From the NCBI GenBank assembly GCA_022376925.1, contig JAIOJX010000004.1, positions 175,923,501 through 175,987,500 of the forward strand: a DNA stretch of 64,000 nucleotides, given 5' to 3'. The notes below the pieces were generated by a model. That model was not told the origin of the DNA, did no database searches, and worked only from the letters and a program-made list of their open reading frames with translations. The position numbers and the translations under genes are program-made. Positions 1 to 61,754 of this stretch are shown in pieces. Numbering within the stretch: the first letter of the stretch is position 1; each line of letters starts with the position of its first letter. The DNA comes from Tragulus kanchil (taxonomy: Eukaryota > Chordata > Mammalia > Artiodactyla > Tragulidae).

Positions 1-1750
1 CCGACCTCGGAGGTTCCCGTCCCGCGGGGAGTCACGACCAGGCACCTCCGGGAGCCGGGGGAGGCCCTGGCGAGGCTCTTCTGGCTCCTCAGAGCCTGGC
101 TTCCTCCCGCACAGCTTTCGTGGCCGTATTTGGCTCCCGGGGCCATGGCTCTGGGCCTCCTCTCCCCTCTGGCTCTCGGCCTCGGGGGCGCCGCCTCCCA
201 GCAGCCTTCCGAGCCCCTGTCCCTGCTCTGCCACCTTCCTGCCATCAGCACAGTTTGGAGTGACTGGTTTACGTGTGGCTTGCACTCCGTTAGACTGTCC
301 GCCCACGAGGACAGGGACGGTAGTCCCGGCCCTGCCGTGCGTCGACCCCCGGTTGGGGACAGGGAGGGGACACGTGGTGGTCCCTGTCCTCACAGGACGG
401 ACAGTCGTGTGCCAGGAGCACCCGCGGCCCCAGGAGGAGGACGCTGACCCACGGCGCCCAGGGCGGTGCACACGCGGGACGAGGCCCTCCACGCCCCCTC
501 CGCAGCAGCCCTGGGCCTCTTTCTTCTAAGGCCCGGCGGCCGCGGCCAGGCCAGGCGGGGCTGCGGGGGGCGGGGCTGGCACGGGGCGGCGGGCTCTGGC
601 GCGGGATGAAGACCTGAGCGCTTTCCGAACACGCAGAGTTTGAGGAACCAAACGCTTGTTTCCTCTTGGAGTCTCATTGTGTTCGTCGTCATCTTCCTCT
701 GCCCGTTCTCGGGCTCTGCCAGCTGACGGAGCCTGCGGCTCGCGTGGGCCCACACGCTTTGTGGTTCGTTCCGAGGGTTGGTGCTGCTGTCCTGTTGATA
801 CAGAAGAAGCGAGGGCTGAGTGGCTAAGCGGCCTGTGCTCAGTCTGGGGCTGTTTCGAGTCTGTCGAGGTCAGCCCTTGCCCTCTTGGAGGGCAGGAGGG
901 CCATGGCATCCGGTCTCGTCCCCCTGAAGGGTGCCCTGCCCACAGGAGGCCCTCTCTAAAGGGGCGGAAGCCCCGGCCCCGGGGACGGGCGCACAGCCGC
1001 CCTCTGGCCGGAGCTCCCGCAGCCGCCCCGCAAGGCAGCGGCCCGGCCCGCCCCCGCCGGCCGCAGTCTGGCTCCCACGCGCTGCAGCGCCGCGCAGGCG
1101 CCTGTGCCTCTCCCCGACCTCGGAGGTTCCCGTCCCGCGGGGAGTCACGACCAGGCACCTCCGGGAGCCGGGGGAGGCCCTGGCGAGGCTCTTCTGGCTC
1201 CTCAGAGCCTGGCTTCCTCCCGCACAGCTTTCGTGGCCGTATTTGGCTCCCGGGGCCATGGCTCTGGGCCTCCTCTCCCCTCTGGCTCTCGGCCTCGGGG
1301 GCGCCGCCTCCCAGCAGCCTTCCGAGCCCCTGTCCCTGCTCTGCCACCTTCCTGCCATCAGCACAGTTTGGAGTGACTGGTTTACGTGTGGCTTGCACTC
1401 CGTTAGACTGTCCGCCCACGAGGACAGGGACGGTAGTCCCGGCCCTGCCGTGCGTCGACCCCCGGTTGGGGACAGGGAGGGGACACGTGGTGGTCCCTGT
1501 CCTCACAGGACGGACAGTCGTGTGCCAGGAGCACCCGCGGCCCCAGGAGGAGGACGCTGACCCACGGCGCCCAGGGCGGTGCACACGCGGGACGAGGCCC
1601 TCCACGCCCCCTCCGCAGCAGCCCTGGGCCTCTTTCTTCTAAGGCCCGGCGGCCGCGGCCAGGCCAGGCGGGGCTGCGGGGGGCGGGGCTGGCACGGGGC
1701 GGCGGGCTCTGGCGCGGGATGAAGACCTGAGCGCTTTCCGAACACGCAGA
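1..1750 (+). repeat. TD1: tandem duplication, period 1113 bp
   Basis: Bases 1-637 recur at 1114-1750 with no difference I noticed; beyond that the copies diverge (gtttgagg against tgcctttt). The first unit probably starts left of the window, which would make 638-1113 the first part of the second unit. The sequence is GC-rich and the long open frames on both strands here look like composition effects. It lies upstream of the candidate TCF20 3' end and may be intron of that gene. Confidence 0.9.
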
Positions 1751-59400: not shown

Positions 59401-61754
59401 CACAGAGAAGTCAATGTACACAGAACCATCCGCTGATGGGGACAAAGCTGGGATCTGAAGCCCGGCAGTTCCGCTCTGGAACCGCGCCATGCTGCCTCTG
59501 CAGGCGCAGCGGGCTTCTCTCAAAAAAGCAGAGGCTCTTCGAGAGAGCACCATAGCCCACGCTGCTTCCCGTCCTCAGGTACCTAGCTTAGGCTCAGGCT
59601 AATATTTGGTGAATGGAATGAATGGGCAACCAGTGTGGTCAACGAGTAGACGTCGGCTCAGTTTTTCAACACCGTGTTTTAACCGTCTCTGCCTTGAATC
59701 GTGTTCTCTCCCCAGTGCATTTGTTCCAGCTGGACATCTCTGTGAAACAGGGAAGGGATAAAGTTCGAGAGATGTTTCAGAAGAATGCCCACGTCACAGA
59801 CCCCAGGGTGGTGGATCTTCTGGTCATTAAGGTAACTGACTCCGACTGATTTAAAAGCGCAGCCTGTGTATCCAGGGCGTCCCAGGGGAATCTTTTATCG
59901 CCAGGTTTAAAAGCAGCTACTGGGTCAGCAGCTTTTGCCTACTGTTTCAAAGAACAGTTGACCTTGGAGGTCCTCACCTGGTTAAATAGACTTTAAGATA
60001 GATTATTTAAGGGAAAATTAACGGCTTACATTTTAAAAGTAAAAGACGGGGGAAATGTGAAGTCTTCTGAACCTCATCTGCACGTTACCGCTTCACTGGG
60101 TCGCCGGTTTACAGCCGCCGCGGGCCCGTCGGCTGGGTCCTGGGAGAGTGGAGTCAGGGCCGGGCTGGGCTCTGTCCTGGTCTGTCTCGTGAGCCTGGGC
60201 GGCAGCTTCAGCATGGGCCAGTAGATACGGAAAGACTGGCTGACAAGACACATGTTCAGCCAGTCAGGCTAGGCAGTCGTGGGGCAGAGGCCTGGGGGCC
60301 AACAGTTACCCTATCGGAACCCGTCAGCCAGAGGGTGAAAAAAATGTATCTGAAAGGCCTCAGAGGTGATCTAGTCCAGGCGCTGTCCTGAGCATCCTGC
60401 GTTCTCAGAATCCTCACAGCGGCTCTGGAGTTACACGTGCTGCTCTCATCCACATTTCGCTTGCAAAGAAATCCACTCGGGCACAGAGAAGTCAATGTAC
60501 ACAGAACCATCCGCTGATGGGGACAAAGCTGGGATCTGAAGCCCGGCAGTTCCGCTCTGGAACCGCGCCATGCTGCCTCTGCAGGCGCAGCGGCTTCTCT
60601 CAAAAAAGCAGAGGCTCTTCGAGAGAGCACCATAGCCCACGCTGCTTCCCGTCCTCAGGTACCTAGCTTAGGCTCAGGCTAATATTTGGTGAATGGAATG
60701 AATGGGCAACCAGTGTGGTCAACGAGTAGACGTCGGCTCAGTTTTTCAACACCGTGTTTTAACCGTCTCTGCCTTGAATCGTGTTCTCTCCCCAGTGCAT
60801 TTGTTCCAGCTGGACATCTCTGTGAAACAGGGAAGGGATAAAGTTCGAGAGATGTTTCAGAAGAATGCCCACGTCACAGACCCCAGGGTGGTGGATCTTC
60901 TGGTCATTAAGGTAACTGACTCCGACTGATTTAAAAGCGCAGCCTGTGTATCCAGGGCGTCCCAGGGGAATCTTTTATCGCCAGGTTTAAAAGCAGCTAC
61001 TGGGTCAGCAGCTTTTGCCTACTGTTTCAAAGAACAGTTGACCTTGGAGGTCCTCACCTGGTTAAATAGACTTTAAGATAGATTATTTAAGGGAAAATTA
61101 ACGGCTTACATTTTAAAAGTAAAAGACGGGGGAAATGTGAAGTCTTCTGAACCTCATCTGCACGTTACCGCTTCACTGGGTCGCCGGTTTACAGCCGCCG
61201 CGGGCCCGTCGGCTGGGTCCTGGGAGAGTGGAGTCAGGGCCGGGCTGGGCTCTGTCCTGGTCTGTCTCGTGAGCCTGGGCGGCAGCTTCAGCATGGGCCA
61301 GTAGATACGGAAAGACTGGCTGACAAGACACATGTTCAGCCAGTCAGGCTAGGCAGTCGTGGGGCAGAGGCCTGGGGGCCAACAGTTACCCTATCGGAAC
61401 CCGTCAGCCAGAGGGTGAAAAAAATGTATCTGAAAGGCCTCAGAGGTGATCTAGTCCAGCCACCTCATCTTCCAGAGGCGGACACTAAGGTCTGGACAGA
61501 GTATGTCACCTGCCCAAGGTCACTCAACAGCCAGCCCTAGAGCAGAGACTCGAACCCTGGCGGTTAGTGTTGATCCCGCCCCCCCAGCCACTCCTGACCG
61601 AGACCTCTCCCCTACCTTACAGGGAAAGATGGAACTGGAAGAAACGATTCATGTGTGGAAGCAGCGGACACACATTATGCGGTTTTTCCATGAAACAGAG
61701 GCACCAAGGCCAAAGGATTTCCTGTCCAAGTTCTACGTTGGGCACGACCCGTGA
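51390..61754 (+). CDS. NDUFA6: NADH dehydrogenase 1 alpha subcomplex subunit 6, LYR-motif protein
   Basis: Accessory subunit of mitochondrial complex I, on the matrix side; LYR-family proteins bind the acyl-carrier subunit NDUFAB1. Coding exons: 51390-51528, 59716-59831, 61623-61754, giving 128 residues, the length of human NDUFA6. Leu35-Tyr36-Arg37 is the LYR motif in [13 protein letters not shown]. The C-terminus ends FYVGHDP, as in mammalian orthologues. Phases fit: exon 1 ends one base into the Val47 codon, and exon 2 ends on a whole codon. The ATG at 51390 is chosen over upstream in-frame non-ATG codons because it matches the mammalian N-terminus. Exon 1 occurs again at 52497-52635 and exon 2 at 60796-60911. 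A second exon 2 (116 nt) would shift the frame. Confidence 0.96.
52497..52635 (+). other. Second copy of NDUFA6 exon 1
   Basis: Same 46 codons plus one base, with the same donor, and with the same CCAAT boxes upstream at 52362 and 52432. If real, it could initiate transcripts giving the same protein, because splicing from either exon 1 to exon 2 keeps the frame. If TD12 is artefactual it is absent from the genome. Confidence 0.9.
53349..55481 (+). repeat. TD13: tandem duplication, period 1067 bp
   Basis: Copy 1 is 53349-54419 and copy 2 is 54416-55481, sharing tctg at the joint. The start of copy 2 lacks several bases of copy 1 (tcagcccagtcc against tcagcgctgcccagtgtcc). It lies in NDUFA6 intron 1. 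Confidence 0.95.
53652..53986 (-). mobile_element. SINE of the gtgtccaatta form with target-site duplication, NDUFA6 intron 1
   Basis: Minus-oriented, about 335 bp, flanked by agggacgtcttttt at 53637-53650 and 53987-54000. The body reads gtgtccaattaccgag on the minus strand. Little divergence suggests a recent insertion. Copied at about 54712-55046 by TD13. Confidence 0.85.
55885..56070 (+). mobile_element. MIR element
   Basis: Contains aataactgacattcactg, gatgctagatgcttcgc and ggtgagaaaacggaggcac, the ordered MIR landmarks. Confidence 0.7.
56176..58277 (+). repeat. TD14: tandem duplication, period 1049 bp
   Basis: Copy 1 is 56176-57234 and copy 2 is 57225-58277, sharing gcccctgcat at the joint, the longest microhomology of the set. 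It lies in NDUFA6 intron 1. Near the left end copy 2 lacks a few bases (agccccccagcctccctcc against agcccgtccctcc). Confidence 0.95.
58043..58318 (-). mobile_element. CHR-type SINE, minus orientation
   Basis: Ends on + with gggccacgagggaagccc, and contains cagggatcagacctgtggcc. The TD14 copy 1 version is cut at 57234, so the uncut version is this one. Confidence 0.65.
59253..59490 (+). mobile_element. MIR element in NDUFA6 intron 1
   Basis: Ordered MIR landmarks: gctaacaggtattgagcgc, tgtgccaggcgctgtcc, tgggatctgaagcccggc. Partly repeated at 60376-60570 by TD15. Confidence 0.7.
59295..61459 (+). repeat. TD15: tandem duplication, period about 1081 bp, spans NDUFA6 exon 2
   Basis: Copy 1 is 59295-60379 and copy 2 is 60376-61459, sharing ccag at the joint. 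Exon 2 is identical in both copies. A one-base indel is visible (cgcagcgggcttc against cgcagcggcttc). Confidence 0.95.
60796..60911 (+). other. Second copy of NDUFA6 exon 2
   Basis: Identical to 59716-59831 with the same acceptor (ctccccag) and donor (gtaactg). At 116 nt it is not a multiple of three, so only one exon 2 may be included in a productive mRNA. Confidence 0.9.
61462..61580 (+). mobile_element. MIR fragment upstream of NDUFA6 exon 3
   Basis: Contains cacctgcccaaggtcactc and agactcgaaccctggcgg, the 3' half of a MIR. Confidence 0.65.

Follow-up and report, generated by a model that had tools for sequence, protein, structure and literature searches.

A 64-kb stretch of the Tragulus kanchil assembly GCA_022376925.1 (contig JAIOJX010000004.1, positions 175,923,501 to 175,987,500; the whole stretch is called the window here) contains 15 direct, adjacent duplications of nearly one size, detected by a k-mer scan and gapped alignment. 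These duplications of about 1.1 kb are real in the letters, but most likely not a real feature of the biology. The tandem copies are probably an assembly artefact, made of concatenated consensus pieces from a long-read assembler that works with fixed segments, and the extra copies should most likely not be read as biology. A reading as overlapping pieces is favoured by the single size shared by all 15 periods despite differing underlying sequence, and by two genes that are intact only if each of their exons is used once.

The period ranges from 1049 to 1129 bp over the 15 pairs, with a mean of 1094 and a standard deviation (SD) of 23. Copies in the 14 complete pairs are 1035-1136 bp long and 97.6-99.9% identical; in pair 1 the window start truncates the first copy, and the visible 637 bp are 100% identical. 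The summed periods come to 16411 bp, turning about 47.6 kb of sequence into 64.0 kb, and the 15 joints delimit 16 pieces, of which 14 lie wholly inside the window. The underlying sequence is varied, and includes both genes and repeats (among them short interspersed elements, SINEs, which we take to be ruminant). Near-identical adjacent copies this long would not be expected to arise by chance. A sequence-only reading of this DNA had proposed 15 near-identical, directly repeated and adjacent pairs falling on unrelated sequence; the k-mer scan, gapped alignment and self-comparison recovered every one of them, genes and repeats do lie beneath them, and its list of periods agrees with the periods at copy starts in 15 of 15 cases. 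A blastn self-comparison (E 1e-10, low-complexity filter on) gave no other repeats of >100 bp and >90% identity in the window beyond the 15 pairs and one third copy of about 430 bp. Tandem Repeats Finder, with a longest period of 500, did not detect the repeats of about 1.1 kb. The window has no N characters and no lower-case letters. The pairs are as follows (window positions; no strand applies):

Pair 1, 1-1750: first copy 1-637 (cut by the window start), matching 1114-1750; joint presumably at 637/638, if there is no spacer
Pair 2, 5910-8048: copies 5910-6957 and 7001-8048; 43-bp spacer, read as a degraded tail of the left piece
Pair 3, 8076-10201: copies 8076-9110 and 9166-10201; 55-bp spacer with no clear flank origin
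Pair 4, 12271-14518: copies 12271-13384 and 13383-14518; left-piece tail with a loss of 19 bases at one place and single-base losses elsewhere
Pair 5, 14090-16237: copies 14090-15149 and 15179-16237; 29-bp spacer; first copy with a CYP2D exon 1 that the joint cuts short
Three-copy stretch of about 430 bp, 12978-15606: copies 12978-13384, 14090-14518 and 15179-15606
Pair 6, 17177-19338: copies 17177-18263 and 18257-19338; CYP2D exons 3 and 4 doubled
Pair 7, 21381-23510: copies 21381-22449 and 22446-23510
Pair 8, 26404-28595: copies 26404-27482 and 27518-28595; 35-bp spacer with weak resemblance to the sequence before copy 1
Pair 9, 32231-34452: copies 32231-33343 and 33343-34452
Pair 10, 41425-43673: copies 41425-42543 and 42554-43673; 10-bp spacer with weak resemblance to the left-piece continuation
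Pair 11, 47746-49978: copies 47746-48859 and 48858-49978; exception to the indel pattern described below
Pair 12, 51212-53431: copies 51212-52321 and 52319-53431; NDUFA6 exon 1 doubled
Pair 13, 53349-55481: copies 53349-54419 and 54416-55481; 83 bp in common with pair 12
Pair 14, 56176-58277: copies 56176-57234 and 57225-58277; 10-bp shared word at the joint
Pair 15, 59295-61459: copies 59295-60379 and 60376-61459; NDUFA6 exon 2 doubled

Alignments of the 14 complete pairs contain 33 insertion or deletion (indel) events, distributed over 13 pairs with none inside the copies of pair 2, and 28 substitutions. The indels form a mirror image: losses near the start of a copy are mostly in copy 2, those near its end mostly in copy 1, and 26 of the 33 fit this pattern. 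In the start half, copy 2 lacks the bases in 14 events and copy 1 in 6; in the end half, copy 1 lacks them in 12 and copy 2 in 1 (both halves: Fisher p 0.0009). The fit is closer at the edges, with 18 of 19 indels no more than 150 bp from an end conforming (p 0.0001), and it holds pair by pair as well (12 of 13; pair-level swap test, p 0.016). Such losses may be the trace of pieces that were built separately and are poor at their ends, with bases lacking both at the head of the right piece and in the left-piece tail; real duplication would give no reason for them. In six pairs (3, 5, 9, 10, 12, and 15), the copies differ by indels only, with zero substitutions in the aligned parts.

Substitutions are clustered in three places: in pair 11 at 48039-48064 / 49151-49176, in pair 6 at 17439-17497 / 18513-18572, and in pair 7 at 21815-21831 / 22876-22892. 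Either allelic differences or local errors in the consensus could lie behind these clusters.

The three copies of the 430-bp stretch listed above lie inside pairs 4 and 5, where the middle piece is not as long as its two overlaps together and the outer pieces therefore overlap each other. Three copies allow the odd one to be named: at the 11 sites that differ, it is the left-piece tail in 10, the middle piece in one, and the right piece in none. Pairs 12 and 13 overlap in the same manner, by 83 bp.

Two genes run across the duplications. Their exon bounds were set from splice-site words and by eye, without transcripts:

16166-21277, plus strand: CYP2D-like gene with nine exons, at 16166-16354, 17034-17205, 17744-17896, 17999-18159, 19591-19764, 19909-20050, 20275-20462, 20879-21020, and 21099-21277
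18819-18971 and 19074-19234, plus strand: second copies of CYP2D exons 3 and 4, doubled by pair 6
51390-61754, plus strand: NDUFA6 gene, with exon 1 at 51390-51528 (again at 52497-52635), exon 2 at 59716-59831 (again at 60796-60911), and exon 3 at 61623-61754

With each exon used once, the CYP2D-like gene gives an unbroken product of 499 amino acids, whose best solved match is cytochrome P450 2D6 (the query being 441 of the 499 residues); with exons 3 and 4 used twice, a stop is reached at residue 227. Pair 5 contributes a further, truncated CYP2D exon 1. In pair 6, deletions at the head of the right piece fall within the end of CYP2D exon 2, and the reading frame of copy 1 is intact. NDUFA6 behaves in the same way: exons used once give an intact product of 128 amino acids, exon 2 used twice a stop at residue 95. 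Compared with its two best distinct solved matches, presumably those of sheep and cattle, the intact product has 4 and 5 differences in 128 residues. As bounded here, the donor of CYP2D exon 2 (17205-17207) is GC instead of GT.

The joints are of two kinds. Nine of the 14 complete pairs (4, 6, 7, 9, 11, 12, 13, 14, and 15) abut with 1-10 bp of shared sequence, and in the other five (2, 3, 5, 8, and 10) the copies are separated by 10-55 bp of extra sequence. Each of the five spacers was compared with both flanks, using 2000 shuffles each (ten tests in all). The spacer of pair 2 ends in 19 bases identical to 8111-8129, with a deletion-rich stretch ahead of them, and is therefore read as a continuation of the left piece beyond an AT-rich tract, with many losses; when it is aligned as a left tail, 0 of 2000 shuffles align equally well. 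The pair 3 spacer (9111-9165) includes 32 bases that nearly repeat 9014-9044, which lies about 100 bp upstream within the same piece. In a word search of the window, the pair 8 spacer matched only itself. Base composition around the breakpoints, judged by eye, fell into no consistent class.

On the explanation favoured here, the window would consist of consensus pieces that were built separately, each with about 1.1 kb in common with the next, and that were joined end to end in a chain with the shared part unmerged. Concatenation of overlapping pieces without merging would account for the adjacency of the copies, the end losses, the pair 2 spacer, the three-copy site, and the state of the two genes. 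A long-read assembler built around segments of fixed length could give rise to a single shared length; the pieces would be units of that assembler, for which the merge step would have failed. The likeliest source, rather than a proven program, is a layout of the wtdbg/Redbean type, in which reads would be cut to 1024-bp segments serving as the vertices of the graph, with an overlap of one vertex expected between neighbouring consensus units. According to two papers, Redbean (wtdbg2) cuts reads into 1024-bp segments and merges these into vertices (PMC7730629), and often left the ends of circular contigs with some sequence duplicated (PMC6966772). A sika deer genome is described as made with wtdbg v1.2.8 (PMC10372904); this shows only that such ruminant assemblies exist and does not tie the window to one. 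Among the literature matches listed (titles and abstract starts), none described the present artefact. The sequence-only reading had also named an assembly cause as the likeliest, and the mirror-image indels, the three-copy site, the pair 2 spacer, and the genes that need their exons once all favour it. Of its two versions, overlapping contig ends kept twice draws on this same evidence, and gap filling finds no support of its own, with no detectable difference in GC or length between alternate pieces among the 14 compared.

Several points weigh against this explanation. The evidence for it comes from the assembled letters. The test of the indel pattern covers the 33 indels; the four indels of pair 11 run in the opposite direction; and one base was scored as fitting in both pairs 4 and 5, although three-way comparison identifies it as inserted in the middle piece (dropping both counts leaves 24 of 31 indels that fit). 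Only the spacer of pair 2, of the five, clearly matches a flank. Those of pair 8 as a right head (31/2000), pair 10 as a left tail (38/2000), and pair 3 as a right head (61/2000) are weak matches for a series of ten tests, and that of pair 5 matches neither flank (2000 shuffles). The microhomology at the joints sums to 37 bp over nine joints, compared with about 0.7 per joint by chance, a sum reached in 0 of 200000 simulations; plain concatenation would not produce it, and it would suit a real microhomology-mediated duplication. Joining at the longest shared word, considered as its cause, is unsupported: the observed word is the longest, or tied for longest, at four of nine joints when 15 bases are taken, at two of nine with 30, and at one of nine with 50. 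As for the source, the mean period of 1094 is 7% above 1024, and all periods, though close to that figure, exceed it; net base loss in raw reads or a spread of read ends could make up the difference. Finally, the overlap of 428 bp between the two outer pieces at the three-copy site is greater than the default node overlap of wtdbg.

An unlikely alternative, though the best placed of those considered, is that gaps were patched: every second piece would be a patch put into a gap along with an untrimmed anchor of about 1.1 kb on either side, giving two duplications for each patched gap. A 1-kb anchor would account for the fixed size. Taking the pieces as 2-3, 4-5, 6-7, and so forth leaves three of the seven gaps with sizes close to zero or below it (27, about -430, and -83 bp), which overfilled gaps would also show, and the 27-bp gap is an AT-rich tract; the opposite pairing, however, gives possible gap sizes too. 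Patches might also be expected to stand apart from the pieces around them, but alternate pieces have no detectable difference in GC (p 0.62) or length (p 0.26), with only 14 pieces compared, and the end losses occur on pieces of both parities.

Uncollapsed haplotypes, with two alleles of one locus placed in series at each duplication, seem very improbable. They would suit the clustered substitutions in pairs 6, 7, and 11; in five of the six assemblies tabulated in a passage of the Vertebrate Genomes Project study (PMC9516828), moreover, false duplications of the allelic (heterotype) kind outweigh the other class. One length of 1.1 kb and base losses towards piece ends are not expected of alleles, however, nor do alleles fit the six pairs that differ by indels alone. 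A real burst of about fifteen microhomology-mediated tandem duplications with a unit of about 1.1 kb in one 48-kb region, their length set by an unknown ruler, is scarcely credible: the 1-10 bp of microhomology at nine joints, above chance, and the clean tandem structure of nine pairs speak for it, and the single size over 15 events (we know of no process that sets a 1.1-kb duplication unit), the mirror-image losses at joints, the pair 2 spacer as degraded flank, and the doubled exons that stop two genes if spliced in speak against it.

Should this error extend to the whole assembly, the total length would be about a third too great, as it is here (64.0 kb for 47.6 kb), with doubled exons and with genes called broken; CYP2D and NDUFA6 both have doubled exons in this window. 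Counts of duplications, exons, or gene copies from such an assembly would mislead. The signature, one period near 1.1 kb with losses at piece ends, is easy to scan for.

Among known systems, the class described by the Vertebrate Genomes Project as homotype false duplication (PMC9516828) comes closest: in both, near-identical copies of one locus are left in an assembly, and the differences between the copies here may likewise be read errors. Here that likeness is favoured by the losses towards piece ends and by the 10 of 11 three-copy sites where the odd base is in one piece's tail, but it does not account for pair 11 or for the clusters of substitutions in pairs 6 and 7. The copies in the window are distinct in having a fixed size, in recurring every few kb, and in abutting without assembly gaps, which are usual but not required in homotype false duplication; that class is also defined partly by read depth and k-mers, whereas the window copies are known from assembled sequence. 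The wtdbg/Redbean fuzzy Bruijn graph (PMC7730629) is built from segments of one fixed size, about 1 kb, which is near the repeated length found here, although the mean is 1094 bp and not 1024; no report of overlaps between such units left along a contig was among the literature matches listed.

Microhomology-mediated tandem duplication also produces direct, adjacent copies with short shared words at their joints, and the window has these, with 1-10 bp of microhomology at nine of 14 complete joints. It differs from that process in its fixed unit size (period SD 23 bp, where real duplications would have independent sizes), in its mirror-image end losses in place of symmetric differences between copies, in the overlap of three copies, and in the damage that the doubled exons would do to two genes if spliced.

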